A DNA stretch of 64,000 nt. Source: Pseudomonas sp. 31-12. Lineage in GTDB: Bacteria; Pseudomonadota; Gammaproteobacteria; Pseudomonadales; Pseudomonadaceae. The position numbers and the translations under genes were made by a program. This document shows positions 14,626 to 55,329 of this stretch, in pieces; the first letter of the stretch is position 1; each line of letters begins with the position of its first letter. The notes below the pieces were generated by a model. It did no database searches and was not told where the DNA came from. It worked only from the letters and a program-made list of their open reading frames with translations. The stretch is taken from positions 4,154,001 to 4,218,000 of the forward strand of contig NZ_CP029482.1 of the NCBI RefSeq assembly GCF_003151075.1. Direction: 5' to 3'.

Positions 14626-15573
14626 TTAACTGGACGACATTGTAGATGAACATACCCGCGCCCTGCCCGCGTTCTTCGCTTCGTAGAGTTGCTTGTCCGC
14701 AGCTTCTATCAAAGCCTCGAATCCTAGTTCGCCAGTGGGCGTCAATGTTGCGACGCCTAGAGAGATTGTCAGCACGCGATCGACATCAGAAGCAGAATGT
14801 TCGATGCCCAATATCCGAACACGTTCCTGCATTCTTTCTGCAATCTCGACCGCACCAGAAAGAACTGTATTGGGCAGAACGCAGGCGAACTCTTCGCCAC
14901 CATACCGAGCGACCAGGTCATAGGGCCGTCTAACCGTTTCAGATAACGTTTGGGCAACGGATTTCAAACAGTCATCTCCAGCCTGGTGTCCGTACCGGTC
15001 GTTGTAGCGTTTGAAATAGTCGACATCCACCAAAATGAGCGATAGCGGCTTTTGCTCTCGAAAGCACTGACGCCAATCCGCCAATATGTCCTCATTAAAT
15101 TTGCGTCGATTGGCCACCCCGGTAAGACCATCTATCAACGCCATGGAACGCAGCAGATCGCTCTGTAGTTTCAGGGTTAGATGTGTTCGCACACGTGCTC
15201 TGACAATGGTGGTATTGATGGGTTTGGTGATGAAGTCCACCGCGCCAAGCTCCAGACCCAGCACCTCATCTGACTCCTGCTGCTGTGCGGTAATGAAGAT
15301 GATGGGGATGCCTTGGGTCATAGGGTCAACCTTGAGTCGACGGCATACTTCATGCCCATCCATACCATTCATGACCACGTCCAGCAGAATCAAATCGGGC
15401 AGTTGGGCCTGGCATACGCTGATTGCCTGCTCACCGCTGGTGGCCATGAACACATCACAGTCCTCACGAAATAGCTCATGAAGTACCCGGATATTAGTCG
15501 GTTGGTCGTCGACAATAAGGAGTTTGGGACGGTTAAAGGAATGTGATAACCACGTTTCCATCGATTGTTCCAT
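14626..15573 (-). CDS. Response regulator with GGDEF domain (diguanylate cyclase)
   Basis: 315 aa. REC domain residues about 17-135 (LLIVDDQPTN, phospho-acceptor Asp in LILLDVVMNG, Lys in FITKP); GGDEF domain about 150-310 with active-site ARYGGEEFACVLP and an inhibitory I-site RPYD five residues before it. Phosphorylation should stimulate dimerisation and synthesis of c-di-GMP, as in PleD/WspR. Its ATG overlaps the stop of the hybrid kinase gene (TGATG), so the two are translated together and the kinase is the likely phosphodonor. Confidence 0.92.
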   Translation of the reverse strand: MEQSMETWLSHSFNRPKLLIVDDQPTNIRVLHELFREDCDVFMATSGEQAISVCQAQLPDLILLDVVMNGMDGHEVCRRLKVDPMTQGIPIIFITAQQQESDEVLGLELGAVDFITKPINTTIVRARVRTHLTLKLQSDLLRSMALIDGLTGVANRRKFNEDILADWRQCFREQKPLSLILVDVDYFKRYNDRYGHQAGDDCLKSVAQTLSETVRRPYDLVARYGGEEFACVLPNTVLSGAVEIAERMQERVRILGIEHSASDVDRVLTISLGVATLTPTGELGFEALIEAADKQLYEAKNAGRARVCSSTMSSS

Positions 15574-30830: not shown

Positions 30831-31718
30831 ATGCTCAAGCACTGGCCCCCGCTCAGCACCCTTCGCGGCTTTGAAGCCGCTGCCCGCCTCGGCAGTTTTC
30901 ACAAGGCTGCCGACGAGTTGCACCTGACCCAATCGGCGATCAGCCAGCAGATCCGCACGCTTGAGGCGTACCTTGAGCAGCCGTTGTTTTTTCGCAGCGG
31001 ACGCAGTGTCAGCCTGACCGATGCCGGTCACGATTTGCTCAGCACCACCCAGGCGTTATTGCAGCAACTGGCGGTCGGCATTCGTCGCCTCGGGCAATAT
31101 CAGAAACCCAATCAACTGGTGCTCAACACCACGCCGACGTTCGCTCGTCATTGGTTGTTGCCACGCCTGGGGGATTTTCGCCGGCAGCATCCGGAGGTCG
31201 ATCTGTGGATTTTCAGCACCGATGAAGTCCCGGATATGACCACCCAGACCATCGACCTCGCGGTGCGCGACGACATCAGCTCCCAGGCCGAGTGCAGCTT
31301 CAAGGTGCTGCACGCCGACCGCCTCTACCCGGCTTGTCACCCGAACCTGTTGGCGGTGCCTGTCGAGCAGCGCACCACCCTTCACGGCGAGCGGGAAATG
31401 GACTGGAGTCACTGGGCCGTGGAGGCTGGCATTGATGTCGGACAGAAAGATCAGGGGCTGAATTTCTCCGACCCCGGCCTGCTGCTGGACGCGGCGTGCG
31501 CGGGGCTTGGTATTGCGCTGGTCAGCCAACTATTGAGTCGGCCAGCGCGCGATAGCGGACTGTTGCAACCGTTGGTGGAAGACACCATTCGCGGTCCGAA
31601 CTGGGCCCTGCTGACTCACCGTGACAGCGAGAACAATCCGTTGGCACGAAGTTTCGTCGAATGGCTGCTGAGTAACCTGGAGGCAGCGAACCAGACGGCG
31701 TCCGCACTTGCGACATAA
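30831..31718 (+). CDS. LysR-family regulator (GcvA-like)
   Basis: 295 aa. HTH SFHKAADELHLTQSAISQQIRTLEAYLEQ within residues 1-60; MLKHWPPLSTLRGFEAAARLGS and FFRSGRSVSLTDAG are GcvA/AmpR-group marks. Divergent from aguA with 134 bases between, so a role in agmatine or polyamine control is possible (inference). Confidence 0.88.
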   Translation: MLKHWPPLSTLRGFEAAARLGSFHKAADELHLTQSAISQQIRTLEAYLEQPLFFRSGRSVSLTDAGHDLLSTTQALLQQLAVGIRRLGQYQKPNQLVLNTTPTFARHWLLPRLGDFRRQHPEVDLWIFSTDEVPDMTTQTIDLAVRDDISSQAECSFKVLHADRLYPACHPNLLAVPVEQRTTLHGEREMDWSHWAVEAGIDVGQKDQGLNFSDPGLLLDAACAGLGIALVSQLLSRPARDSGLLQPLVEDTIRGPNWALLTHRDSENNPLARSFVEWLLSNLEAANQTASALAT

Positions 31719-32272
31719 ATGGGTGCGCGTCAGTTAGCCAGCCATAAACGTTGGCGAAGTTCCCATTTCACAACAGAACACTCTGCCCACTACTCTTGCG
31801 CGACAGCACTTTTACAAGAAACTTTATTAGTTCAAAAAGAATATCCAGTGTATCGTGACATTATTCAGGCGCCATATAAGTGACTGACACCTCAGAAAAC
31901 AACACTGCGAATATGGTCAATCGCGACTGCTATAACCATACAATAATTCACACGCACCGACGAACGGCGACAAAATAACAAAACACCTACAAATCAACGA
32001 CTTAAAATGCGAACAACAACAAAAAACAAAACTTCTCAAAAAACACAAAACCAAAAAAAGACAGACCATCATTACAAAAGTTTCAAACTTATTGATTAAA
32101 TAAAAAACCTCATATAACTCTTTAAAACATTCCCCTTCGATGCTAATAATCCGCCGCTTCCGGGTTTACAGGCGATACAACCTCTCACATGAAGTGATCA
32201 TCAGCGCCCACGCTGATCTCCCGGTATTAATCAAAATTCAGATAACACCGCTTGCTCAAGTCTCCATAAAAC
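31719..32272. other. AT-rich leader upstream of polysaccharide operon
   Basis: No convincing gene apart from a short frame from 32140. From about 31790 to 32130 the composition is far more AT-rich than anything else in the window, with A/C-rich runs (AAAAACAAAACTTC..., AACAACAACAAAAAAC) and little T until 32090. Such DNA is a usual target of MvaT/H-NS-type silencing or a long unstructured leader. Confidence 0.5.
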
Positions 32273-32346
32273 TTGGGCCTGCATTGTGCTGCGCACTCAA
32301 ACTGCGCAAGGAAGGCAATCATCGCTCGCCATCATTCAAGGATTAA
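32140..32346 (+). CDS. Candidate upstream ORF (68 aa) overlapping wecB start
   Basis: ATG at 32140; basic, no recognised homology (MLIIRRFRVYRRYNLSHEVI...HRSPSFKD). Its TAA (32344-32346) overlaps the first codon of the conserved WecB sequence (ATT at 32342) by one base. No clear ribosome site. May be a leader ORF coupling translation of wecB, or accidental. Confidence 0.25.
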   Translation: MLIIRRFRVYRRYNLSHEVIISAHADLPVLIKIQITPLAQVSIKLGPALCCALKLRKEGNHRSPSFKD

Positions 32347-33559
32347 AATCCTTTCGATCTTCGGTACCCGTCCGGAAGCCATCAAGATGGCGCCGTTAGT
32401 CAAAGCCCTCGCTGCGGAACCCGGCATTCATTCGCAGATATGTATCACCGGCCAACATCAAAGCATGTTGAAACAGGTGCTCGATCTGTTCGACCTCAAG
32501 GCCGATTACACCCTCGATGTCATGACGCCACAGCAAACGCTCAACTCGTTGACGGCGGCGCTTTACGGGGCGATCGATCCGGTGCTGGAAATGGCCTGCC
32601 CGGACCGGGTGCTGGTGCACGGCGACACCACCTCGGCCATGGTCGCCGCGATGGCGGCGTTCCATCGACGCATTCCGGTCGGCCATGTGGAAGCCGGGCT
32701 GCGAACCGGTGATATCTACAGCCCGTGGCCGGAAGAAATGAACCGTCGCTGCATCGACCTGGGGGCGGACATGCTGTTTGCGCCGACCCACGAATCGCGC
32801 CAGAACCTGCTCGACGAACGCCTGCAGGGTCGCACCTTCGTCACCGGCAACACGGTGATCGATGCGTTGCAGATGACCGCACGGCGCATTGAGCAGGACG
32901 CCGACCTGCGTGCCAGCCTGGACCGGCAGTTCTCGTTCCTGCAGGCCGGCCGCAAGGTCCTGCTGGTCACCGGACACCGTCGGGAAAATTTCGGCGAAGG
33001 CTTCCTCGATATCTGCAAGGCCCTGAGCCATCTGGCCCGGCGCACGGACATCCAGATCGTTTATCCGGTGCACTTGAACCCGAATGTCATGGGCCCGGTC
33101 ACCGAGCATCTGGGCGACCTGCCCAACGTGCACCTGATCCAGCCGCTGGACTACCTGGCCTTCGTGCGCCTGATGCAACGAGCCCATGTGATCCTCACCG
33201 ATTCCGGTGGCGTGCAGGAAGAAGCGCCGTCCCTGGGCAAACCGGTGCTGGTCATGCGTGACGTGACCGAACGCCCTGAAGCTGTCGCGGCGGGCACCGT
33301 GCGTCTGGTCGGCACCTCGCCGGACTCGATCATCGCCGGCGTCAACGCGCTGTTCGATGACGACCTGCTGTGGCGTCGTTGCTCCCAGGCGGCCAACCCT
33401 TACGGCGACGGCAAGGCCAGTGCGCGCATCGTCGATGCCCTGATGGGCCGCCCGGTGGACGATTTCATCGTGGCCAGCCAGTCCTTGCCCAAGTTCCTGC
33501 ACTACCCGTCAACACAGTCTGTGCCCGAGAAGCATTACCCGGCTTTCACCTCTCGATAA
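32273..33559 (+). CDS. wecB: UDP-N-acetylglucosamine 2-epimerase (non-hydrolysing)
   Basis: 428 aa from TTG 32273. Family sequence begins KILSIFGTRPEAIKMAPLVK (codon 32345 on) and shows VHGDTTSAM, GHVEAGLRTGD, GNTVIDAL, VTGHRRENFG, YPVHLNPNV, LTDSGGVQEEAPSLGKPVL and RDVTERPEA, all hallmarks of WecB. It interconverts UDP-GlcNAc and UDP-ManNAc in the cytoplasm, supplying ManNAc for the polymer made by the next genes. The start is uncertain: no ATG/GTG lies near the expected N-terminus, and TTG 32273 would add about 24 unusual basic residues with no ribosome site; AAGGAAGG at 32308-32315 sits before ATC codons 32318/32321. First gene of the operon, 41 bases before the BcsB-like gene. Confidence 0.85.
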   Translation: MGLHCAAHSNCARKAIIARHHSRIKILSIFGTRPEAIKMAPLVKALAAEPGIHSQICITGQHQSMLKQVLDLFDLKADYTLDVMTPQQTLNSLTAALYGAIDPVLEMACPDRVLVHGDTTSAMVAAMAAFHRRIPVGHVEAGLRTGDIYSPWPEEMNRRCIDLGADMLFAPTHESRQNLLDERLQGRTFVTGNTVIDALQMTARRIEQDADLRASLDRQFSFLQAGRKVLLVTGHRRENFGEGFLDICKALSHLARRTDIQIVYPVHLNPNVMGPVTEHLGDLPNVHLIQPLDYLAFVRLMQRAHVILTDSGGVQEEAPSLGKPVLVMRDVTERPEAVAAGTVRLVGTSPDSIIAGVNALFDDDLLWRRCSQAANPYGDGKASARIVDALMGRPVDDFIVASQSLPKFLHYPSTQSVPEKHYPAFTSR

Positions 33560-33600
33560 ACCAAACCGCTCCTCCCCTTATCAGCTCGAGATCTACCTGA

Positions 33601-35814
33601 ATGAAGTCTTCCGTTGCCATCCATACGGGTGCACTCAGCACCCTTGCCTGTGGTGTGAGCCTGCTCGCGCTCATGCCGACCTTTGCCTTGGCCGCGGGCA
33701 GTCCGCTCACCCAGGCGATCAACCGGCTCAACGCCGACACCCGACAAGAGCGTGAGGTGCGCTTGAGCGATCTGGGGATCGACGCACCGATCATCCTCGG
33801 CTCCACCGATGCCCGCCGCGAACTGTATCTGCCGGTGCCGGCAGGTGTTCCGCTGACGGATGCGACGTTGAATTTCGACGCCAGCTACCTCAATGGCGAA
33901 GGTGGCCGCAATACGCTGCTGCTGTCGCTGGACGGTTATCCGGTGCGCGCCGAAGGCCTCAGCGAACCTCAGGGTGACGCCAGCGCCACGCTGGGCGTGG
34001 ACAAAAAAGCACGGGACAGCGGCTCGGTGCGCCTGGGCATTGCCTGGTCGTCGATCGTGTCCCGTGTGCTGTGCGAAGACGAACGCGCCATCGGCAACGT
34101 CTTGCGCATCGAACCGGACACCCGCCTGACTTACAGCTACGACGCCAGCCAGTTGCGCGACGTCGGCGCAGCGTGGACGGCCTTGCCTGGCAAGCCGGGG
34201 ATCATGGTCGCGCCCGGCACCTTATCCGCTGAAAGCTACGATTCGGCATGGCGTCTGGGCGTGGCACTGGAGCGGATTGGCAAGCGCAGTCAAATCCTGC
34301 CCTTCCCTGCCGTACAAGACAGCGTCGACCTTAGCGGTCTACGCATTCCGGCCGAACTGCAAGGTATTCCAGCGTTCGCCAGCCTCAACGGCAAGGGTTC
34401 GCACACGTTGGCGAACCCGGCGGAGATTGGCGCATTGCTGGTATTGGGCCAGACGCCGAACGTCCAGGCGGATCTGGCGGTCAACGACCCGCAACTGCTC
34501 CAAGCGGTCAATGAATCCCTCGACGCGCTGCAGAGCCAGATCCAGGGCCTCGATGCCACGGCGGCCAACGCGTTCACGCAATGGCGTAAGACGCATATCA
34601 ACGCAGGCCTTGCCGCCGAGGGCTCTGACAATGTGCGCCTGGCCCTGGTGGGCACGCGTCCGGTCCTGATGATCGCGCCGCCGGCCACCGGCAAGGCGCT
34701 GGCCTTGTTCAGTACCGCCTGGAACAAACTGGCGCGCAGTCGCCAATTGACCATCAGCGAAGCACAGCTGCCCTTGAGCACCGACGGCCGTGTCGCCCTG
34801 TCGCGCCTGGGCGGCAATTCCGGCGTTATCGACGTGCTGGCCAAGTCTGACTGGAGCACGTCATTCCCTCTGGGCAGCGTGGCTTACGACGGGCGCTTGC
34901 CGGTGAAGGCTGTGGTCGACGTGTCTGCCGCGCCCGGCGCTTCGGACACCGCGCCGGTGGCCTCGCTGTTTCTCAATGATTACCTGATTGGCGCGCAGCA
35001 GCTGGTGGCCAACGGTGAAAAGCAACGCATCGAAGCGCGGATCCCGCGTTACGCCGTGGGCGCGACCAACGTGCTACGCGTGTCGTTCCAGCGTCAGCCA
35101 GTGAGTGATCGCTGCCTGGAAACGCCACAAGCCTTCCCGGTGTCGGTGCTGCCGACCAGCCACATCGTGCTGGAAAAAACCGCCTTGGGTAATGACTTCT
35201 CCGGCATGGCCGCGCGCTTTGCCGAGGACACGCAAATCCTGGTGCCGCGGGCCTACCTCGAGCATCCAGCGAGCAGCTTGCCGCAGGTGATTTCGGTCGC
35301 CGACGCCGCCGGTGTCTCGCCGCTGCGGGCGCAATTAAGGGTCGTCACTGACCCGAACGCCTCGGTCACGCAGGACAAGGCCTTCCTCGCCTTCGAGCTG
35401 CCGATCAAGGACAGCAAGGAGTCGGTACAGGTCGATGAGCAGGGACGCCTGCGTATCAATCACAAGGATCAGGTGTTGCTTGACGTGCATCCCCTCAACC
35501 ACCTGGCCTCGCTGCAAGTGGTGGATGCCGGCGGTCAGCACGGCATGGTCTATCGCGCGCTGGGCACCGACACACCACGCTTCGCCAAACAGATTCTGCT
35601 GACCCGCGGTGATGTGGCGATCCTGGGCGACAACGGCGCACTGACCACCTTCGACACTCAAGATCCAAGCGGCAGCCAATTGATCGACAACGAAGAACCC
35701 AAAGGCCTCGACGCCTGGCGGACACCGTCGCTGTTGTGGCTGATTCCGGGTGGCATCCTGTTGGTTCTCATCCTGTTGCTGGCTGGCCGCAACGCCCGTC
35801 GCAATCGCCAGTAA
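33601..35814 (+). CDS. BcsB-like periplasmic polysaccharide synthase subunit
   Basis: 737 aa. Signal peptide (MKSSVAIHTGALSTLACGVS..., cleavage near TFALA|AG), large periplasmic region with the BcsB cellulose-synthase-regulator layout: LPVPAGVPLTDATLNFDASY (carbohydrate-binding-like), an LFLNDYLIG module and a single C-terminal membrane helix (LWLIPGGILLVLILLLAG, about 710-730). In cellulose synthesis BcsB anchors to the membrane next to BcsA and guides the glucan through the periplasm. Here it accompanies an NfrB-type synthase instead of BcsA, 12 bases before that gene. The assignment to the BcsB family is moderately secure, its role with NfrB is inference. Confidence 0.78.
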   Translation: MKSSVAIHTGALSTLACGVSLLALMPTFALAAGSPLTQAINRLNADTRQEREVRLSDLGIDAPIILGSTDARRELYLPVPAGVPLTDATLNFDASYLNGEGGRNTLLLSLDGYPVRAEGLSEPQGDASATLGVDKKARDSGSVRLGIAWSSIVSRVLCEDERAIGNVLRIEPDTRLTYSYDASQLRDVGAAWTALPGKPGIMVAPGTLSAESYDSAWRLGVALERIGKRSQILPFPAVQDSVDLSGLRIPAELQGIPAFASLNGKGSHTLANPAEIGALLVLGQTPNVQADLAVNDPQLLQAVNESLDALQSQIQGLDATAANAFTQWRKTHINAGLAAEGSDNVRLALVGTRPVLMIAPPATGKALALFSTAWNKLARSRQLTISEAQLPLSTDGRVALSRLGGNSGVIDVLAKSDWSTSFPLGSVAYDGRLPVKAVVDVSAAPGASDTAPVASLFLNDYLIGAQQLVANGEKQRIEARIPRYAVGATNVLRVSFQRQPVSDRCLETPQAFPVSVLPTSHIVLEKTALGNDFSGMAARFAEDTQILVPRAYLEHPASSLPQVISVADAAGVSPLRAQLRVVTDPNASVTQDKAFLAFELPIKDSKESVQVDEQGRLRINHKDQVLLDVHPLNHLASLQVVDAGGQHGMVYRALGTDTPRFAKQILLTRGDVAILGDNGALTTFDTQDPSGSQLIDNEEPKGLDAWRTPSLLWLIPGGILLVLILLLAGRNARRNRQ

Positions 35815-35826
35815 CGGAACCCTTCG

Positions 35827-37941
35827 ATGACGTCGCTTTATTGGCCCTATTGGCTGGCCCACTACTACAGCTTCCTGGAGTTCTCGACCATCGCGGTCGC
35901 GGTGCTGATCCTGATCTCCAGCCTGGACGATCTGTTCATTGACCTGTGGTACTGGTCTCGCCGCCTGTTTCGCAAGTTCACCGCGGACCGAAAATACCGG
36001 CCGCTGACCGCCGAGCAGTTAATGGCCCGGGATGAACAGCCGCTGGCAATCATGGTCCCGGCCTGGCTGGAATATGACGTCATCGCGCCGATGATCGAAA
36101 ACATGGTGTCGACCCTCGATTACCAAAACTATGTGGTTTTCGTCGGCACCTACATCAACGACCAGCGCACCATCGATGAAGTCGAACGCATGCGGCGGCG
36201 CTACAAGCAGTTGCACCGCGTGGAAGTCCCGCATGCCGGGCCGACCTGCAAGGCCGACTGTCTGAACTGGGTGATCCAGGCGATTTTCCTGCACGAGAAA
36301 ACCCACGGCATGACCTTCGCCGGGGTGGTGCTGCACGACAGTGAAGACGTGCTGCACCCGATGGAATTGCGTCTGTTCAACTACTTGCTGCCGCGCAAGG
36401 ACATGATCCAGTTGCCCGTGGTGTCGCTGGAACGCAACTGGTACGAATGGGTGGCCGGCACCTACATGGACGAGTTCGCCGAATGGCACGGCAAGGACCT
36501 GGTGGTGCGTGAAAGCATGACCGACACGGTGCCGTCTGCCGGCGTTGGCACCTGTTTTTCACACCGCGCGTTGCGTGTGCTGGCCGGGGAAACCCAGAAC
36601 CAGCCGTTCAACACCGACAGCCTCACCGAGGACTACGACGTTGGCGCACGCCTGGCCAAGGTCGGCATGAACGCGATCTTCGTGCGCTTCCCGGTGCAGT
36701 TTCGCGTGCTGCGCAAATCCTGGTTTCGCAAGCCTTACGAATCGACGCTGAAGATGCCCTTGTGCGTGCGCGAGTTCTTTCCCGACACCTTCCGCACCGC
36801 GTTCCGCCAGAAAGCCCGCTGGACACTGGGCATCGGCCTGCAAGGCTGGGAGCAAATGGGCTGGAACGGTTCGCTGGCCAACCGGTATCTGCTGTTTCGT
36901 GACCGCAAAGGCGTGGTGACGGCGTTCGTCAGCATCATCGCCTACGTGATTCTGGTACAGCTGCTGGGCCTGATCATCCTGCGCCAGAGCGGCCTGTGGG
37001 ACGTGAGTTTCCCCACGCCATTCGAAACCAACGGTTTCATCAAATACTTGCTGCTGGCCAACGGTGTCGCGCTGGCCTGGCGCATCGCCCACCGCTGCTA
37101 TTTCACCACCGTGCTGTACGGTTGGCAGCACGGTTTGCTGTCGATCCCGCGCATGGTCGTGGGCAACTTCGTCAACTTCATGGCTGCGTCACGGGCCTGG
37201 CGGATGTTCCTGGTCGGCAAGGTCATGAACCGCAAACTGGTGTGGGACAAGACCATGCACGACTTCCCCTCCACCGACCTGGTCGCTGCCGCACCGCGCA
37301 AGCTGGGCAGCGTGTTGCTGTCCTGGCAGGCGATCAACGAAACCGACCTGCAAAACGCCCTCGCCGAACAGAAAACCCGTCACATGCCATTGGGGCGGAT
37401 CTTGCTCAGCAATGGCTGGCTGGACGACGAGACGCTGGCCGAAGCCATCGCTTTCCAGAATGACCTGCCGCGGGTGTTCGATGTGGCCCATAAGGCGCAG
37501 ACGTCGACTCTTACCCTGGACGATGAATTCGCCCTGCGCTGGCGTGTGGTGCCGGTAGGTTTGAATGCCGACGGCCGAGCACAACTGGCCGTGGCCAGTC
37601 CGTTGCCGGCCGAAGGTCTGCAACAAGTCAGTGAGGTGCTGGGCAGCGAGCCGGTGCAACTGATCGCCCGTGAAAGCGAAATTGTCGCGCAGTTGCGCCT
37701 GATGAACGTGCGCGAAGGCCAATCCGTACCGGATGCCCGCGCGCCACTGCTGGGTGATCTGTTGATCGAAATGGGCCTGCTGGATCGCGACGTGTTCAAC
37801 CGCACCATGCTGCAGTACCGCCCGCAGCGTCACGGACGCATCGGCGACTATCTGGTCGACAGCGGCGTGCTGCCCCGCGCCACCATCGAAAAGGCCGTGG
37901 CACGTCAGCACAGCCACTACCCTGCGGAGCTACCGGCATGA
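35827..37941 (+). CDS. nfrB: NfrB-like family 2 glycosyltransferase with MshEN-type c-di-GMP domain
   Basis: 704 aa. TM helix about 13-32, then a GT2 domain with VPAWLEYDVI, the DxD-region HDSED (about 170), SLTEDYDVG (TED) and RQKARW (about 325; Q/RxxRW), followed by several helices (FVSIIAYVILVQLLGLIIL, LLLANGVALAW). C-terminal third (about 490-704) contains four MshEN-style repeats: KLGSVLLSWQAINETDLQNA, PLGRILLSNGWLDDETLAEA, LLGDLLIEMGLLDRDVFN and RIGDYLVDSGVLPRATIEKA. NfrB of E. coli makes the N4 phage receptor glycan under c-di-GMP control through such a domain. Synthase activity is inferred; substrate is probably UDP-ManNAc from WecB. Confidence 0.88.
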   Translation: MTSLYWPYWLAHYYSFLEFSTIAVAVLILISSLDDLFIDLWYWSRRLFRKFTADRKYRPLTAEQLMARDEQPLAIMVPAWLEYDVIAPMIENMVSTLDYQNYVVFVGTYINDQRTIDEVERMRRRYKQLHRVEVPHAGPTCKADCLNWVIQAIFLHEKTHGMTFAGVVLHDSEDVLHPMELRLFNYLLPRKDMIQLPVVSLERNWYEWVAGTYMDEFAEWHGKDLVVRESMTDTVPSAGVGTCFSHRALRVLAGETQNQPFNTDSLTEDYDVGARLAKVGMNAIFVRFPVQFRVLRKSWFRKPYESTLKMPLCVREFFPDTFRTAFRQKARWTLGIGLQGWEQMGWNGSLANRYLLFRDRKGVVTAFVSIIAYVILVQLLGLIILRQSGLWDVSFPTPFETNGFIKYLLLANGVALAWRIAHRCYFTTVLYGWQHGLLSIPRMVVGNFVNFMAASRAWRMFLVGKVMNRKLVWDKTMHDFPSTDLVAAAPRKLGSVLLSWQAINETDLQNALAEQKTRHMPLGRILLSNGWLDDETLAEAIAFQNDLPRVFDVAHKAQTSTLTLDDEFALRWRVVPVGLNADGRAQLAVASPLPAEGLQQVSEVLGSEPVQLIARESEIVAQLRLMNVREGQSVPDARAPLLGDLLIEMGLLDRDVFNRTMLQYRPQRHGRIGDYLVDSGVLPRATIEKAVARQHSHYPAELPA

Positions 37942-40481
37942 ATCGCCCCTTGCTGACCCTCATGGCTACGGGGCTGAGCCTGATACCTGCGCTGGTTCAT
38001 GCCCAAACGCTGCCATTGCCGTTGACCGGCCCGGCCTATGTCACCGCCAACGAGGCCTACAGCGCCTACGAGCGCAAAGACTACGACCTGGCCATCGCCA
38101 AGGCCCGCGAAGCGTTGCGTCAGCGCGCCGACATCACCCGTTTGAACACGCTGATCGTGCTGGCGCAACGGGACAAGGATCTGCGTGATCATCCCAAACG
38201 CTACTCACCGTCACGTCAGGCGCCGGGTTTCGGCGCCGCGGCCCAGGCCTTCAAAGCCTATGATCGCGATGATTTCGGCGCTGCGGCACAGGCGTCGCGC
38301 AAAGCCATCGCTCAAGCACCCAAGCGCATGGATTATCGACTGCTGCTGATCGAGTCGTTGCAGCGTCAACAACATCTTCAAGAAGCGGATCAGGCCACCA
38401 CTCAGGCACTGGCCGTGTTCCCGGACGACGATACGTTGCTGATGCGCCGCGAAGCGATTCGCCGACAATTGGCGGCGCCGCTGGCCGTCCAAGGTTATCG
38501 CGCCCTGGAGCAAGGCCAAGTGCCGTTGGCCGTGGATCAGGCCCGGAAAGCCGTCGCCTGGGCACCGGAAATCGGCGCCAATCAGCAACTGCTGATCAGC
38601 GCCCTGCTCGCGGCCAAGGATTACCGAGGGGCCGAGCTGGCCGCCTCCGGCGCACTGGCTCAGGACGATGGCGAAATCGCACCGTGGATTCTGCGCAGCT
38701 ACGCCCTTGATCGTCAGGGCAAAACAGCGGCGGCCCAGGCTGACCTGAACCAGGCTCTGGCTATCGAGGGTCTGCTGGAAACGGAAACCCGTGACATTCG
38801 TTTCTTCGCCGCCGACGCCGCGCTGGCCCATGGCGAGCCTCAGCGGGCGCTCGATCAGTTGCAACCGTTGGCCGACGACGAAGGCGGCGAAGTGGCCCTT
38901 CGACGCACGGCCGCCAGAATGGCGCTGCGACAGAAGAACAACGGCTTGAACGCTGTTGCCCAGTTCCCGGCCCCGGCCTTGAACTGTCAGGAAACGGCAT
39001 TTGGCCTGGTCTGCGATATCTGGCCGGGCAACCAGCGCGACGGCGGAACCGACAAGGCCGGCCAGGCCTACGCCGCACTCGCCAGCAAGGACCCCGCCTC
39101 AGCCGTCGTCCTGGCGAATGAAGCCATTGCCCGTGCGCCGCAGAATCCGGCGTATCGGCGGTTGCTCGTCAGCGCCCTGAGTGACCAGAAACGAGTGCTC
39201 GAAGCCATTGCGGCAGCCAGTGAGGGCCTCAAGTTCACAGGCGATGACGCGCGGCTGCTGGCCCAACGCGGTCGTCTGCGCCAGCAATCGGGTGACGACG
39301 CCGGGGCTCGCGAGGACTTTACCCAGGCCTTGGCGCTGGGCAGCCTGCCTGCTTATGAAGAAGCCAGTTTGTACAGCGCCATCGGCCAGCGTCGAACTGC
39401 ACGCGAACGGCTGCAACAAGCGCGGGACACGGGCGAACTGGAATCGATGAGCGACCTGCAAATCGCTTACTTGTCGGTCCAGGCTGGCGACGATGACGGC
39501 GCCAACGTGTCGTTCCGCAAGGCCGACGCCGACACCCGACTCACGCCGACCGCCACTCAGGATGCGGCCTACAACGCGATGCGGGTCAGCGAGGACGAGC
39601 AAGCCGTCAGCTACTTCAAGCGCGTCATCGACGCCAATAATGCCGGTGAACTGGACCTGTCCCCGCAGCAGCTGTTCGACACCCGTCGCGCCGTGGCCGA
39701 TGTCTCGCGCACCTGGGGTTTGACCAACACCACCAGTTATCGCGGCAACAGCACCAGCAGCGGCCTGAGCTCAGCGCCGAGCGGCGGCAATAGCAGCAAT
39801 GACAGCCTGCAAAACAGCACCGAACTGTCCTGGCGTCCGTTGGGTTATCGCAACGCACGGTTTGTCGAACTCTACGGACGCGTCACCGACACGCTGTGGA
39901 GCAAGAACAGTGATTCGGACACCGGTTTCGATGCACTGCAAGGTGCCGTGGGTGTACGGGTCAAACCCTTTACGTCGCTGAACGTGATGGCCGCCGTCGA
40001 GCGCACATTCCCCTTGGGATCGTCGGACGTCGACGGTGACTGGCTGCTGCGTCTGGGCTATGGCGCAAGCGTCGGGACCGATCTGCGGGTCGATGCCTCC
40101 AGCTGGTGGACTTCGCAGTTGTTCGCTGAAGCCGGACATTACGTCAACGATTCGCGTGACTATTTCAACAGCGAATGGCAGGTCGGCCGCAGCTATGCCA
40201 TCGGTGGCGCAGGCTCGCGCTGGGTGACGTTCCCCCATGTGGTGGCCGCGTTCGATTACGACTCGAAGATGAACAGCGGCACCGACGCCGACGGCAAGTC
40301 GGACTCATCGTCCGGCAAAGCCGGCGGCATCGGTGTCGGCAACAACGTGCGCTACTGGTTCCGCGAAGACGCGTACAACGCGCCCCGCTCCTATGTCGAC
40401 TTCTCCCTGCAGTACCGCGTCAAGGTGCTGGGCGATGATCGCGCTCAAGGTGTCTTCGGTCGCCTGACTTATTCCTATTGA
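37938..40481 (+). CDS. nfrA: NfrA-like outer-membrane TPR/beta-barrel protein (phage N4 adsorption protein A family)
   Basis: 847 aa. Signal peptide MNRPLLTLMATGLSLIPALV, many TPR helices about 35-570 (AYSAYERKDYDLAIAKAREA, YRALEQGQVPLAVDQARKAV, ALASKDPASAVVLANEAI), a Ser/Gly-rich linker, and the N4-adsorption-protein-A C-terminal domain from about 620 (LSWRPLGYRNARFVELYGRV, LRLGYGASVG, VGNNVRYWFREDAYNAPRSY, GRLTYSY end with aromatic terminal residue typical of outer-membrane barrels). Probably the exit pore and scaffold for the polymer. Starts within the stop of nfrB (ATGA). Confidence 0.88.
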   Translation: MNRPLLTLMATGLSLIPALVHAQTLPLPLTGPAYVTANEAYSAYERKDYDLAIAKAREALRQRADITRLNTLIVLAQRDKDLRDHPKRYSPSRQAPGFGAAAQAFKAYDRDDFGAAAQASRKAIAQAPKRMDYRLLLIESLQRQQHLQEADQATTQALAVFPDDDTLLMRREAIRRQLAAPLAVQGYRALEQGQVPLAVDQARKAVAWAPEIGANQQLLISALLAAKDYRGAELAASGALAQDDGEIAPWILRSYALDRQGKTAAAQADLNQALAIEGLLETETRDIRFFAADAALAHGEPQRALDQLQPLADDEGGEVALRRTAARMALRQKNNGLNAVAQFPAPALNCQETAFGLVCDIWPGNQRDGGTDKAGQAYAALASKDPASAVVLANEAIARAPQNPAYRRLLVSALSDQKRVLEAIAAASEGLKFTGDDARLLAQRGRLRQQSGDDAGAREDFTQALALGSLPAYEEASLYSAIGQRRTARERLQQARDTGELESMSDLQIAYLSVQAGDDDGANVSFRKADADTRLTPTATQDAAYNAMRVSEDEQAVSYFKRVIDANNAGELDLSPQQLFDTRRAVADVSRTWGLTNTTSYRGNSTSSGLSSAPSGGNSSNDSLQNSTELSWRPLGYRNARFVELYGRVTDTLWSKNSDSDTGFDALQGAVGVRVKPFTSLNVMAAVERTFPLGSSDVDGDWLLRLGYGASVGTDLRVDASSWWTSQLFAEAGHYVNDSRDYFNSEWQVGRSYAIGGAGSRWVTFPHVVAAFDYDSKMNSGTDADGKSDSSSGKAGGIGVGNNVRYWFREDAYNAPRSYVDFSLQYRVKVLGDDRAQGVFGRLTYSY

Positions 40482-40489
40482 GGACTTGC

Positions 40490-41143
40490 ATGAACATTCG
40501 ATTCTGTTTGTGGTTGGGACTTGGCCTGATCCCGATGGGGGCAAACGCCGCCCCTGAAATTGCCCAGTTGTACGCGCCAAAACTGCCCGAGGGTTCCGCG
40601 TGGGTTCGGGTGGTCAATCCCTCCGACACCGCCATGCAGGTCCAGGTGGGCCAGGGCGCGAGTTTCGCCCTTTCGACCCAGTCGACGGTCGCCAGTCCTT
40701 TTCAGGTCGTGGACTCGCGACAGCCGCTGCAAGTGACCGTCAACGGTCGCGAAATAAAAGGCCTGAGCGCACCGAAAAGTGCGTGGGTCACGCTTATTCT
40801 CGACAGTGACCCGGCACAGGCACCTCGCCTGGTCATCGACCCACCGCTGCGCGGCAAAGACCTGCGCGCCGAACTCAACCTGTACAACCTGGCCAACGGT
40901 TGCGAAAAGGCCGGGGTGAAACTGGCCAACCATGCCCCTGTGTTCAATCAGGTGCCGTTCAACGGCCAGGCCCAGCGCACGATCAACCCGGTGCAAGCGA
41001 CACTGGTTGCCAGTTGCGAGCAGAACAGCAGCCTGCCGTTCAAGCTGGCGCCCTTCAAGGCCGGCGATCGTTACAGCCTGTTCCTGGTCGGCTCCCGGCA
41101 GGCTCCACGCCTGATCGGCCTTGTCGACCAGACCGCGCCATGA
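40490..41143 (+). CDS. AlgF-like periplasmic protein
   Basis: 217 aa. Signal peptide MNIRFCLWLGLGLIPMGANA, then LYAPKLPEGSAWVRVVNPS, the typical opening of AlgF (LYxPxxPxGSAFVRVxN), and a beta-sandwich rest (SLFLVGSRQAPRLIGLVD). AlgF assists O-acetylation of alginate in the periplasm, linking the inner-membrane acetyl donor to the acetyltransferase. ATG 40490 is chosen over TTG 40478 because the signal peptide begins there and GAGGAC lies seven bases upstream. Overlaps the next gene by ATGA. Confidence 0.6.
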   Translation: MNIRFCLWLGLGLIPMGANAAPEIAQLYAPKLPEGSAWVRVVNPSDTAMQVQVGQGASFALSTQSTVASPFQVVDSRQPLQVTVNGREIKGLSAPKSAWVTLILDSDPAQAPRLVIDPPLRGKDLRAELNLYNLANGCEKAGVKLANHAPVFNQVPFNGQAQRTINPVQATLVASCEQNSSLPFKLAPFKAGDRYSLFLVGSRQAPRLIGLVDQTAP

Positions 41144-42114
41144 CCTTTCAATTGAAATCTCGCTTGCCGGTTCCCGCCATTATTGCCAGTTTGTTATTGA
41201 GCCTGTCGGGCTCCGGTGTTGAAGCGGCCTCGGCGGTCATTACCGGGGAAGGTGGCTGGCTGTTCCCGGCCTGGGAAAGCCTGAACAAGGTCGACAACCC
41301 CGGCACGGCCCGCAACATTGCGCTGGTGAAACAACTCCAGCAGAACCTTGCCCGGGAACACATCAGTCTGGTCGTATTGGTGGTGCCGATGAAAGCGCCG
41401 TTTTATGCCGCGCGTCTGCCCGCCAATCAGCCCTTGAGCCCGACCGTGATGCAGCGCTACGAGCACTTGCAGAGCGACCTGAGCCAGGCAGGCCTGACCA
41501 CGCTGAACATCAAGCCTGTCCTGCAACGCACCGAACACGGCAAACAGACCGCGTTTTACCGCGCCGACTACCACTGGACAGCCTGGAGTGCGGAAAACAC
41601 CGCTGACGCCACGGCGCAACTGATTACCGAGCGTTACCGCCTGCAAGGCGAACCCGGCGGTGGCGCTGCGCTGGGCGAGTGGTTTGACCGTCGCGCGTTC
41701 GGTGATCTGGCGAGCAATTTCCTGCCGGCGATCAAGCGCAAATCGATTGGTCGCGACATTTACACCGTTCGCCATCAGGCCCAGAACGACTTGCTGATCG
41801 ATGACGCACCGGCACCGGTCCAGGTGATCGGCAACAGCTTCGTCCAGCCTTACCTGGGCTTTACGCAAAAGCTTTCCAATGCCCTGGACCGTCCCGTCGC
41901 GCTGACCTGGAACCCTGGCGATGTCGGCCCATGGGCTACGCTGCTGCAATACCTGGAGTCTGCGGATTTCGCCCAACACAAACCGCAAGTGATCGTCTGG
42001 CAATTCAACGAGGGCCAATTCCACCTCGGCCCCGATGCCGCAGCTAACTGGAACGCCAAAGGCGTCACCTCGCTGAGCCAATGGCATCAGCGCATCAATA
42101 AGGCTCTTCCGTGA
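41140..42114 (+). CDS. AlgJ/AlgX-like SGNH O-acetyltransferase
   Basis: 324 aa. N-terminal signal/anchor (IIASLLLSLSGSGVEAASA), then GEGGWLFPAWES and the SGNH-like core: Asp-His catalytic motif DYHWTAWSA (about 143, as in AlgJ/AlgX DTHWT) and nucleophile segment VIGNSFVQPY (about 230, AlgX LIGDSF-like), plus VIVWQFNEGQF near 290. Such enzymes add acetyl groups to secreted polysaccharides. No MBOAT (AlgI-type) acetyl donor is in this operon. Start overlaps the stop of the AlgF-like gene. Confidence 0.65.
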   Translation: MTFQLKSRLPVPAIIASLLLSLSGSGVEAASAVITGEGGWLFPAWESLNKVDNPGTARNIALVKQLQQNLAREHISLVVLVVPMKAPFYAARLPANQPLSPTVMQRYEHLQSDLSQAGLTTLNIKPVLQRTEHGKQTAFYRADYHWTAWSAENTADATAQLITERYRLQGEPGGGAALGEWFDRRAFGDLASNFLPAIKRKSIGRDIYTVRHQAQNDLLIDDAPAPVQVIGNSFVQPYLGFTQKLSNALDRPVALTWNPGDVGPWATLLQYLESADFAQHKPQVIVWQFNEGQFHLGPDAAANWNAKGVTSLSQWHQRINKALP

Positions 42115-42974
42115 ACATTCTTGGTTACACCGCCAGTCGCGCGACCGTTGCGGGTCTGTTGTTTGCCGCCATTCTCGGCACCGGGACTGGCGTGCTCTAC
42201 GTGACGGACAAAAAGGCCCAGACTCCAGGAATCGTCGGCATCGTCTGGCAGCCGGACAACAAGACCGTCGGCATCAACGGCCATTGGGAAAAACTGGGGG
42301 CCCGTGAGCTGCTGGTGCAGTGGACCGTCGTCGACGATCAGGCATTCGTTGCCGGGACCGGCCTGCCCAGCGTACCGGTTCTGCCCGATTGGGCACGCAT
42401 TGCCAAGGCCCCTTGGGCGCAAGACGTCATCCTCGGACTGGCCGGCTATTTCAGCGAAAACCGCTCACGGGACAACATCGAGCAACTGGCGGCAGTCTCG
42501 GAACGCATCGCCAAATTGCCGACGCCCTTGCACGTCACCGGCTGGTATTTCCCCGCCGAAGTCGACCCCAGCTGGACCCGCGCCAAAGAGCTGCCCGCCC
42601 TGCTGGCCAAGTTACCGCGACCGTTGTGGATCAGCGTGTATGACGGCGCCAACATCGGCCCTGTCGCCACGGCCGAATGGCTCAAGCAGTGGCTGCCGAA
42701 TGACATTGGCGTGTTCTTCCAGGACGGCGTCGGTGTCTACGCCCGCACCGCGCCGGTCGCCAGGACCTACGCCGACGCCTTGCGCCAGCGTCTGGGCAAA
42801 GACCGGGTGCGCATCATCGTCGAAGCCTTCCGGCCCAACTTCGGTGGTGGATTCCGCTCCGCCACCGCCGCCGAGCTCAAGCCGCAATTGGCGGCCTATG
42901 ACGGTTATCCGCTGTACCTGTTCGACGGACCGCACTACGTGACGCCTGAACTGGTGGAGCAACTGGCGCGATAA
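42111..42974 (+). CDS. DUF4434-like barrel protein, probable polysaccharide-processing glycosidase
   Basis: 287 aa. Membrane anchor or signal (TVAGLLFAAILGTGTGVLYV), then a (beta/alpha)-barrel-like domain: GIVWQPDNKTVGINGHWEKL, LHVTGWYFPAEVDPSW, PLWISVYDGANIGPVATAEW, GVFFQDGVGVY, IIVEAFRP and YPLYLFDGPHYV. DUF4434-type proteins occur with extracellular polysaccharide operons and resemble glycoside hydrolases; the acidic residues E in FPAEVDP and D in VFFQDGVG could be catalytic. Last gene of the operon, starting inside the previous stop. Role is inference. Confidence 0.5.
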   Translation: MNILGYTASRATVAGLLFAAILGTGTGVLYVTDKKAQTPGIVGIVWQPDNKTVGINGHWEKLGARELLVQWTVVDDQAFVAGTGLPSVPVLPDWARIAKAPWAQDVILGLAGYFSENRSRDNIEQLAAVSERIAKLPTPLHVTGWYFPAEVDPSWTRAKELPALLAKLPRPLWISVYDGANIGPVATAEWLKQWLPNDIGVFFQDGVGVYARTAPVARTYADALRQRLGKDRVRIIVEAFRPNFGGGFRSATAAELKPQLAAYDGYPLYLFDGPHYVTPELVEQLAR

Positions 42975-53505: not shown

Positions 53506-53643
53506 AACACTCCGGAAGAAAGGTCGCTCAACACACTTCCCTACCCTCGATCCTCCCGAGCCATGAAAGCGCCGCCACTGGCAGCGACCCCTCCATTGCG
53601 CATACCATGCCGCGATTCCAAAAAAAACTTCAGTCAGGCCCCC

Positions 53644-55329
53644 ATGATCAAAGCCAGTCTGCGTAGTCACCTGACACTCTGGTTTGCCGGCTTGTCGCTG
53701 CTCACGCTGGTCAGCGTGGGTTTTTATGTCGGCCACATCGCCACCGAGCAGATGAAGCAGGCGAGCGGCAATGCGTTGTTGAGCACGGCAAGGTCTGCGG
53801 CCGAGTTGTTGGGCGCGCAACTGCATGAACGTCAGCTCGAAGTGTCTTTGCTCAGTCGAGCCCCGCTGTTCAAAAATGGCGACCTCAACGATCCGGACAT
53901 CTTGTCGTCGATGGAGCTGCGTTCGCAGTCCCGCGCCGAGTACGCCTGGATGGGCGTGGCAGACGCCGACGGGCGTGTGCGGCAAGCCGTGAATGGCCTT
54001 CTGGTGAATCAATCGGTCAAGGAGCGTCCGTGGTTCCAGGCCGGGATGCGCGGTGCTTACACCGGTGATCCGCACGAAGCGGTGTTGCTGGCCAAACTGC
54101 TGCCGGGAACTGCCACTGGCGAGCCGTTGCGCTTCATCGATTTCGCCGCACCGATCCGCAATGCCAATGGCCAGGTGATCGGTGTGCTGGGCGCGCATGC
54201 CCATTGGAGCTGGGCGACGCGAATTGTCGACTCGGCCGTGCTGCGCAAAGACATGACGCCTGAAGTGGAGGCGCTGATCGTCGACCACGACGGCAAAGTG
54301 CTCTATCCGGAAGCGCTCATGGGGCAACACGTGCCGAACATGCCGCAGGCCCGGGAAAACCATTCCGACACCGCTGGCTGGTCAGTAGGCAATGGTTACC
54401 TGACCAGCGTTGTCGCGGTGCCGACGCCTTCGAGTACGGACCTTGCCTGGTACATCGCGGTCCGGCAACCGCTGGATATCGCGCTTCAGCCCGCACGCAT
54501 CCTGTTCTATAAGTTGCTGCTGTTGGGCGTGATTGCCGCGATCGTGTTCGCCTTGGTCGCTTATTACCTGGCGCTGTACCTCAGTCGCCCGATCGAATTG
54601 TTGGCCAAATCGGCCAAACGGGTACAGAACCAACAGCCAGGTGCAACGTTCCCCCAAGACCATCCGGTGCGGGAAATTGCCCAGTTGGGTCAATCGCTCC
54701 AGGGCATGACGCAGTCCTTGCTCGGCAAGGAACGCGAGTTGCAGGAAGCCAATGCGTCGCTGGAAGCCACCGTCGCGCAACGCACCGCCGCCCTCACCCG
54801 GGCCAATGCCGATCTGTTGAAACTGGCCACCCACGATGCGCTGACCGGCGTGTACAACCGGCGGCGATTTGACGAAAAACTGGACGAGTGCAACCTGCTG
54901 TTCCAACGCACTGGACGGCCGTTTGCGTTGCTGTTCATCGACGCCGACCACTTCAAGCAAATCAACGACACCCACGGCCATGCGATTGGCGATGAGGTGC
55001 TGCACCAGCTCGCCCGGCTGATTCAGGACAACACCCGCGCCACTGATTTCGTGGCCCGTTACGGCGGTGAGGAGTTTGCGGTGCTGTTGCCGGAAATCGA
55101 GGAGCCGGAGAGCCCCGAGGTCGTTGCCGAGAAGATCCGCGCCGCGATTGCCGCGGCTAGCTTTGCCACGGTCGGGCACGTCACGGTGAGTATCGGCATC
55201 GGGCTGGCCGAGTCATCGGACAGCAATACCACCTCACTGATCAAACGTGCTGATCAGCAGCTCTATCAGGCGAAGTGGTCGGGAAGGAACCGGGTGGCTG
55301 CGCAGTCCCGCGTGACGGAACGCCACTGA
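53644..55329 (+). CDS. Membrane diguanylate cyclase (dCACHE-HAMP-GGDEF)
   Basis: 561 aa. TM about 10-30 (LWFAGLSLLTLVSVGFYVG), periplasmic dCACHE domain about 40-300 with WFQAGMRG, TM about 298-320, HAMP-like region (LYLSRPIELLAKSAKRV), coiled coil, then GGDEF domain from about 410 with GGEEF (about 473) and I-site RATD five residues before it. Should synthesise c-di-GMP with product inhibition. Start ATG 53644 (MIKASLRSHLTLWF) is more likely than ATG 53563. Confidence 0.9.
   Translation: MIKASLRSHLTLWFAGLSLLTLVSVGFYVGHIATEQMKQASGNALLSTARSAAELLGAQLHERQLEVSLLSRAPLFKNGDLNDPDILSSMELRSQSRAEYAWMGVADADGRVRQAVNGLLVNQSVKERPWFQAGMRGAYTGDPHEAVLLAKLLPGTATGEPLRFIDFAAPIRNANGQVIGVLGAHAHWSWATRIVDSAVLRKDMTPEVEALIVDHDGKVLYPEALMGQHVPNMPQARENHSDTAGWSVGNGYLTSVVAVPTPSSTDLAWYIAVRQPLDIALQPARILFYKLLLLGVIAAIVFALVAYYLALYLSRPIELLAKSAKRVQNQQPGATFPQDHPVREIAQLGQSLQGMTQSLLGKERELQEANASLEATVAQRTAALTRANADLLKLATHDALTGVYNRRRFDEKLDECNLLFQRTGRPFALLFIDADHFKQINDTHGHAIGDEVLHQLARLIQDNTRATDFVARYGGEEFAVLLPEIEEPESPEVVAEKIRAAIAAASFATVGHVTVSIGIGLAESSDSNTTSLIKRADQQLYQAKWSGRNRVAAQSRVTERH

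Follow-up and report, generated by a model that had tools for sequence, protein, structure and literature searches.

Within a 64,000-nt stretch of the genome of the soil bacterium Pseudomonas sp. 31-12 (contig NZ_CP029482.1, positions 4,154,001 to 4,218,000; hereafter the window) lies one tight operon, the genes of which encode WecB, a BcsB-like protein, NfrB, NfrA, an AlgF-like protein, an SGNH O-acetyltransferase-like protein and a likely member of YbcH/DUF4434 (Table 1). A sequence-only reading of this DNA had proposed this gene list as a single operon and had related it to WecB, NfrA and NfrB of Escherichia coli, which, together with YbcH, are described as a system controlled by cyclic di-GMP (c-di-GMP) that provides the receptor of phage N4 (PMC8669472, PMC8669469). 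Both proposals are borne out. The proteins match the expected families, and wecB-bcsB-nfrB-nfrA-ybcH recurs as the core order in each of the 72 class-A loci (NfrB identity of at least 80%; 63 distinct NfrB sequences, some genomes being counted twice). The kinship with E. coli is apparent in the c-di-GMP module MshEN of NfrB, where the model NF053729 matches two stretches. We consider it very probable that this is a c-di-GMP-controlled synthesis and export operon of the NGR class.

Table 1. Features of the wecB-ybcH operon, in positions of the window
Feature	Position	Strand	Basis or remark
Inverted repeat TGCGCA-7 nt-TGCGCA	32290..32308	+	abuts wecB Shine-Dalgarno on upstream side
wecB, UDP-GlcNAc 2-epimerase, 412 aa	32321..33559	+	TIGR00236 464 bits; probable AUC start
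BcsB-like periplasmic co-synthase subunit, 737 aa, C-terminal membrane helix	33601..35814	+	PF03170 26.1 bits
NfrB-like inner-membrane GT2 polysaccharide synthase, 704 aa, C-terminal MshEN modules	35827..37941	+	NF012033/PRK15489 1180 bits
NfrB residues 492-544, best MshE-type c-di-GMP motif pair	37300..37458	+	NF053729, 2 stretches in protein
NfrA-like periplasmic TPR superhelix and outer-membrane barrel, 847 aa	37938..40481	+	PF13283 198 bits
NfrA residues 204-394, TPR block that includes a beta-hairpin (347-362); suggested site at which acetylation proteins dock	38547..39119	+	
AlgF-like periplasmic adaptor, 217 aa	40490..41143	+	PF11182 52.8 bits
SGNH O-acetyltransferase-like, 324 aa, signal-peptide-like N-terminus	41140..42114	+	PF16822 214 bits
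YbcH/DUF4434-like membrane-anchored periplasmic protein, 287 aa	42111..42974	+	PF14488 27.4 bits; PRK09936 46.5 bits

As the first gene of the operon, wecB encodes a TIGR00236 protein (464 bits) that, on sequence, would supply UDP-N-acetylmannosamine (UDP-ManNAc). NfrB combines PF13632 with MshEN (PF05157), retains the motifs SED, TED and QxxRW, and has a second LG/IG motif pair starting at about residue 642. The predicted structure of NfrA (pLDDT 84.8, pTM 0.57) consists of helices from about residue 32 to 589 followed by 12 strands (593-846); E. coli BcsC is among its Foldseek matches (ranks 19 and 50), and the VIA comparison listed generic TPR proteins only. The assignments of BcsB, AlgF and SGNH held as well. 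The BcsB domain scores above its cut-off (26.1 bits against 21), and the 22 best Foldseek matches of the predicted structure (pLDDT 78.9, pTM 0.77, helix 703-736) are BcsB throughout; a PDB sequence search with this protein gave no match at E ≤ 1. The AlgF-like protein (PF11182) matches AlgF in the PDB (6czt, 35.3 bits), and the SGNH protein (PF16822) matches AlgJ (4o8v, 75.9 bits) and AlgX (35.9 bits); a carbohydrate-binding domain was not found in it.

Two sets of scores weigh against the placement next to the E. coli system: NfrB reaches 664.6 bits with the E. coli NfrB model PRK11234 (cut-off 1170), and the YbcH-like protein stays below both of its cut-offs (27.4 against 30 bits for PF14488, 46.5 against 344 bits for PRK09936). 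NfrA scores 53.1 bits with the E. coli NfrA model PRK09782 (cut-off 1223). The operon has the GT2-MshEN synthase and the same-operon NfrA of NGR/Nfr systems but scores below the E. coli equivalog cut-offs and is, judged by sequence, a relative of the E. coli system and not an E. coli equivalog. Membership of the last protein in YbcH/DUF4434 is likely from its position and its PRK09936 E-value (3.1e-12). Within it (42249-42831), all 22 rows, E. coli-type relatives included, share E150, D152, D205 and E238, as would be expected for a glycoside-hydrolase-like enzyme.

This kind of system is already known. With E. coli NGR/Nfr, the window operon shares the GT2 and MshEN synthase, the TPR-barrel pore, the YbcH-like third gene and the WecB step (PMC8669469, PMC8669472). 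It differs in that wecB lies inside the operon, that the BcsB-like, algF and SGNH genes are added, that NfrB falls in PRK15489 and below the PRK11234 cut-off, and that no diguanylate cyclase gene follows ybcH. Indeed, no GGDEF gene that could encode a dedicated cyclase adjoins the operon within the window, the two GGDEF-like open reading frames (ORFs) there being distant (53563-55329, forward strand; 14626-15573, reverse strand). Pseudomonads are described as having nfr operons, in most of them with cyclase genes beside nfr (PMC8669469). In six of the 72 class-A loci (L033, L034, L076, L077, L078, L079) a gene for an 869-aa GGDEF protein is convergent to ybcH. The sequence-only reading knew of no characterised Pseudomonas example. 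The layout itself was published in 2021 for Achromobacter xylosoxidans, where, by the description in the text, an nfrA, nfrB and wecB cluster contains a BcsB homologue and homologues of periplasmic O-acetyltransferases (PMC8669472), and in Simplicispira suum an alginate-type acetylation cluster is reported to lie within the nfr operon (PMC8669469). What stands of the claim of novelty is that a literature search, which had most subscription journals outside its reach, found no Pseudomonas example that had been studied by experiment. The Achromobacter type differs from the window operon in that the retrieved Burkholderiales loci with acylation genes have a local MBOAT; several loci of one Burkholderiales family, f14, are without acylation genes, and in the latter (L157-L161, L164) the order is wecB-bcsB-nfrB-nfrA, NfrA is about 940 aa long, and there is no nearby ybcH match.

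Other known machineries resemble parts of the operon. Acetylated cellulose systems (Bcs/Wss) share the BcsB-like fold and a BcsC-related TPR-barrel exporter, but the window synthase is NfrB-like with MshEN, WecB indicates ManNAc and not glucose, and Wss has its own AlgI-like MBOAT, WssH (PMC10641220). A likeness to Dlt (DltA-DltB-DltC-DltD) exists in the class-B Pseudomonas and some Burkholderiales nfr clusters, which have a DltA-like protein (341 bits, cut-off 560), a DltB-like MBOAT (166 bits, cut-off 375), carrier-protein-like ORFs and SGNH proteins; the window operon shares only the SGNH protein with them. MBOAT and a DltA-like adenylating ligase occur in the nfr clusters of class-B Pseudomonas (L047, L048, L049) and likewise in those of L134, L136, L139, L140, L147, L162, L163 and L165; several of these clusters also have carrier-protein-like ORFs, and some an acyl-CoA dehydrogenase. 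The DltA-like clusters may decorate an NGR-type polymer with aminoacyl or other acyl groups. A pyrrole-type acyl group, considered for the class-B clusters on account of ligase and dehydrogenase, was rejected: the ligase is closest to DltA, and there was no proline ligase among the matches listed.

To place the operon we surveyed 149 Pseudomonas genomes, one per species and drawn evenly. NfrB matches were present in 46 of them, seven with MshEN only (26-34 bits) and 39 with an NfrB-like synthase. Class A comprises 16 genomes, class B (56-70% identity) four, one of them, G075, in two pieces, and class C (37-45% identity) 20 loci in 20 genomes, one also with class B. Class C has the E. coli-like layout, with wecB directly upstream in 16 of 20 loci and a GGDEF ORF (motif match only) after ybcH in 17 of 20; for these loci (L051-L070) the scan covered the seven window proteins only, not MBOAT. 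In a search for relatives, the best 80 of 368 comprised 56 class-A Pseudomonas, which with the 16 above make up the 72 class-A loci, and 24 from elsewhere, mostly from Burkholderiales. The core five genes are constant among class-A loci, but algF and the SGNH gene are present in 34 of the 72 and missing from 38. At least four of the loci studied (L050, L130, L138, L141) hit a contig end within the cluster, so that acylation genes are possibly unseen there. A plasmid search with the SGNH protein returned six records, each below 60% identity, with no sign of plasmid carriage. In three class-A genomes (G093, G055, G065), about 30-35 kb separate nfrB from the AlgI-like MBOAT.

The sequence-only reading had counted two acetylation genes. 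An algF gene and an SGNH gene with a complete triad are indeed present, but the set is incomplete, with neither an AlgI-type MBOAT nor SGNH2, the AlgJ-type membrane partner, in any of the 72 class-A loci, the window operon included. Among 48 non-class-A loci that we scanned, 16 have acylation genes, and all 16 have a local MBOAT. The Herbaspirillum loci L143 and L151 are ordered nfrA-algF-MBOAT-SGNH2-SGNH1-ybcH, and the window has the same order minus MBOAT-SGNH2. The orthologue of the window SGNH protein is SGNH1 of L132, L143, L151 and L153 (332-370 bits, against 31-40 bits for SGNH2). By hydropathy only, the N-terminal hydrophobic anchor is stronger in SGNH2 and AlgJ, and the N-terminus of the window protein resembles a cleaved signal peptide. 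In alginate synthesis, AlgI, an MBOAT, passes acetyl to AlgJ, AlgX acetylates the polymer while bound to the TPR protein AlgK, and AlgF is a non-catalytic bridge between AlgJ and AlgX in Pseudomonas aeruginosa (PMC10641220). The window operon shares the AlgF and SGNH families with this machinery, whose AlgJ-AlgF-AlgX-AlgK relay and export complex serves as our docking model; it differs in having no AlgI or AlgJ, in an SGNH protein without the second domain of AlgX, and in a pore and TPR region united in one protein. Because of its place in the gene order and its N-terminus, the window SGNH protein could have an AlgX-like terminal role.

Where would the acetyl group come from? In this genome (G000), PF03062 gives one match (G000:C1:1310580), which lies within the alginate operon and is AlgI. 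Since the nfr operon is without an MBOAT and the sole MBOAT of the genome is the alginate AlgI, acetyl is probably borrowed. Among the eight algF-SGNH genomes of the 149-genome sample, alginate algI-algJ-algF is present in all and the MBOAT is single in six; in a set of 32 named genomes, of which 26 carry algF-SGNH, AlgI always had a match, at 86-99% identity. An acyl-shuttle motif has been described at the MBOAT C-terminus (PMC12148441), and this hexapeptide, FLYFQF, is the same in the AlgI of the alginate operon as in all 16 cluster MBOATs. We hold that the polymer is probably O-acylated; that its acetyl stems from alginate AlgI-AlgJ is about evenly balanced.

Several observations tell against such a borrowing. 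AlgI is near-universal in the genus, and an MBOAT occurs in 142 of the 149 genomes, which makes co-occurrence weak evidence and left a test of it in Pseudomonas, which we discarded, without power. The seven MBOAT-free genomes have no class-A operon, as expected by chance with 16 positives in 149. The loss of the local MBOAT was probably a single event. The SGNH sequence is nearer AlgJ than AlgX, which by itself gives no support to an AlgX-like terminal role. At least eight of the 32 named genomes have a second AlgI-like MBOAT (36-45% identical), probably the WssH of cellulose systems and a possible other donor there.

It is conceivable, then, that the SGNH protein receives acetyl from another carrier (an acyltransferase-3 or, where present, a cellulose-type MBOAT) or from a small activated donor. 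SGNH enzymes such as AlgX accept surrogate donors in vitro (PMC4148444), and the second AlgI-like MBOAT is found in several algF-SGNH genomes. Nonetheless, PF03062 matches the alginate AlgI alone in this genome (acyltransferase-3 genes were not searched for), the MBOAT is kept by every other cluster with these genes, and the only known role of AlgF, which is retained here, is the bridging of AlgJ and AlgX (PMC10641220). We therefore regard another donor as unlikely. Less probable still is that the SGNH protein is an acyl-removing esterase or a relic and that the operon does not acetylate its polymer. The same Asp/His/Ser triad serves hydrolysis, and AlgJ has acetylesterase activity (PMC4148444); the operon encodes no acyl carrier, and 38 of the 72 related loci lack both algF and the SGNH gene. 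Purifying selection acts on all seven genes (median dN/dS, the ratio of nonsynonymous to synonymous rates, 0.065-0.194 over 11 pairs, 10 for AlgF), and algF has the highest median (0.194), a point in favour of this reading. However, all 49 aligned rows (46 loci, AlgJ and AlgX of alginate, and a single SGNH2) keep the triad, and the SGNH gene has a dN/dS of 0.112, which argues against a relic, while an esterase would make AlgF needless and would sit oddly with the SGNH orthologues that adjoin an MBOAT elsewhere. We give this explanation little weight.

The presence of algF-SGNH goes together with the type of NfrA. All 34 SGNH-bearing loci have a long NfrA (847-860 aa), and a short NfrA together with SGNH was found in none of them. 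Of the 38 loci without SGNH, 34 have an NfrA of 601-671 aa, one has a truncated NfrA (425 aa; L127, excluded from the NfrA-length tests) and three have long forms of 846-848 aa. The trees of the operon parts, compared for 36 of the 72 loci, conflict. L124 is the sister of L046 in WecB, BcsB and NfrB (85, 82 and 88%), and its NfrA barrel has 79-82% identity to the long type but only 62% to that of L046; L128 likewise follows its kin in WecB, BcsB and NfrB, and in the whole of NfrA both L124 and L128 match the long type. On the barrel, approximately unbiased (AU) tests reject a grouping of L046 with L124 (p 5.9e-8) and the placement of L128 among its NfrB relatives (p 9.3e-6); on NfrB they reject one clade for the long type (p 7e-78). 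The groups had been named after the identities were known. As we set the long-type label ourselves, to cover the algF-SGNH carriers and six relatives, its changing only once on the barrel tree follows in part from the labelling. Because the NfrB and NfrA-barrel trees conflict and NfrA is long in 34 of 34 SGNH loci, it seems from the sequences that nfrA-algF-SGNH has been exchanged as a cassette between operon backbones.

Could shared ancestry and lineage sorting produce the same association, with no functional unit and no exchange? Independent changes are few: on the NfrB tree algF-SGNH changes six times and NfrA length five, and on the starred branches of independent pairs the two change in the same direction 2.7 times and in opposite directions 0.0 times of four on average, a coupling for which the sign test gives p 0.25, the events being too few to reach significance. 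That value, as well as the long NfrA without algF-SGNH in L036, L083 and L096, speaks against a cassette. In addition, L104 and L046 sit on long branches of the barrel tree, with the short NfrA of L104 on the long-type side, and the type labels were set only once identities were known. On the other hand, the AU rejections, the split allegiance of L124 and L128, and the lack of any opposite case (a short NfrA with SGNH) count against sorting, which we judge unlikely.

Cassette exchange apart, some loci appear to have eroded. The nfrA-ybcH junction of L036 keeps 28 nt resembling the start of algF; it is a 4-nt overlap in L083 and 87 nt in L096. In short NfrA, residues 204-394 are missing (L043, L120, L125, L104, L133, L144), and separate deletions remove 289-337 and 366-497 in L039, and 231-344 and 366-497 in L041. 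By sequence comparison, L039 and L041 represent two different shortenings of the NfrA TPR region within the L096 lineage, after algF-SGNH had been lost. What the three shortened forms have in common is the loss of residues 289-337 and 366-394. Because this TPR block is lost after algF-SGNH loss, we propose, by analogy with AlgK, that these two segments are a docking site for AlgF-SGNH.

A further peculiarity lies at the 5' end of the operon. No ATG occurs in the wecB frame close to the conserved start; the mechanical ORF begins at TTG 32273. When 62 distinct class-A sequences are aligned, the codon at the presumed start position is ATC in 36, ATG in 25 and ATT in one (ATG versus ATC between L038 and L039); indels of 1-2 nt upstream shift the frame between species, and downstream the frame is kept. 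Alignment A3 holds 50 of 51 references, L128 being omitted. In the window, the ATC (32321-32323) is preceded by GGAAGG. Translation of wecB therefore seems to begin at AUC, which is rarely used for initiation and is conserved here in many species; a precedent for a non-canonical start, under control of initiation factor 3 (IF3), is the GTC of sigR (PMC5472188). The inverted repeat upstream (Table 1) has a stem score of at least 12 in 60 of the 62 sequences, the background being 8.5% in shuffled sequences and 8.0% at 609 other mechanical ORF starts. Double-change cells number 9 where 4.0 are expected (0 of 500 shuffles), double-change pairs 3 where 2.3 are expected (217 of 500), the covariation score is reached in 37 of 500, and folding energies are no better than those of shuffles in five of five cases. 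The repeat could be either an RNA hairpin or an operator. Rfam gave one chance-level match below the gathering score on 31600-32700 (E 0.3). A FleQ box was considered and not used, the only palindromic match (at 31871) having four mismatches.

The sequence-only reading had also suggested a phage receptor. N4 gp65, the sheath protein that binds NfrA, matched 118 phage records, 36 with at least 80% coverage. A phage of Pseudomonas syringae pv. avii, inbricus (L188; Schitoviridae, Rothmandenesvirinae), has a gp65 homologue with 100% coverage and 54.0% identity, and P. syringae phage Arace01 (L186) matches both gp65 (83% coverage, 44.2% identity) and gp64 (98% coverage, 60.7% identity). P. syringae phage uligo (L187) has one domain of N4 gp64/gp65-like receptor-binding proteins. 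In four P. syringae-group genomes, class A is the sole NfrB match at 1e-40 (each of the six genomes checked has one match). The gp65 homologue makes an NGR-type receptor more likely in Pseudomonas generally, though not the acetylated version specifically; that the polymer of this operon is a phage receptor is plausible.

As a whole, the explanation that we consider best, and on balance favour, is a ManNAc-type polymer of the NGR class that is esterified through AlgI-AlgJ supply and shaped by cassette exchange. WecB would provide UDP-ManNAc, and c-di-GMP bound at the MshEN modules would turn on NfrB, which would polymerise the chain and move it across the inner membrane. The BcsB-like protein would take over the chain in the periplasm, NfrA would lead it through the TPR superhelix and then the barrel, and YbcH, at the inner membrane, may trim or guide it. 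The SGNH protein of the operon, held by AlgF on the TPR block of NfrA, would attach ester groups to the polymer, acetyl being the most likely. The operon would have lost its inner-membrane pair for moving acetyl across (MBOAT and a membrane-anchored SGNH protein), leaving a relay from AlgI to AlgJ, to the AlgF and then the SGNH protein of the operon, and finally to the polymer. Swaps of the nfrA-algF-SGNH cassette would let strains alternate between a decorated and an undecorated polymer, each with the matching pore. The most specific form of the idea, in which alginate AlgI-AlgJ feeds an NGR-type glycan through AlgF-SGNH docked on the NfrA TPR block, and in which this adaptor and its matched pore are a mobile cassette that switches the chemistry of a phage-exposed polymer, is put forward tentatively.

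If this were true, two exopolysaccharide pathways of one cell would draw on a common acetyl relay, a connection that is overlooked when the biofilm matrix is viewed one operon at a time. Mutants in algI or algJ are then predicted to be pleiotropic, and alginate expression would, through AlgI, set the degree of acetylation of a second polymer. The joint exchange of pore and modification genes, together with the loss of the TPR block after algF-SGNH loss, points to a concrete docking surface that can be tested. Finally, if a probable phage receptor can be switched between acetylated and unacetylated forms, this would have a bearing on the host range of phages in plant and soil pseudomonads.

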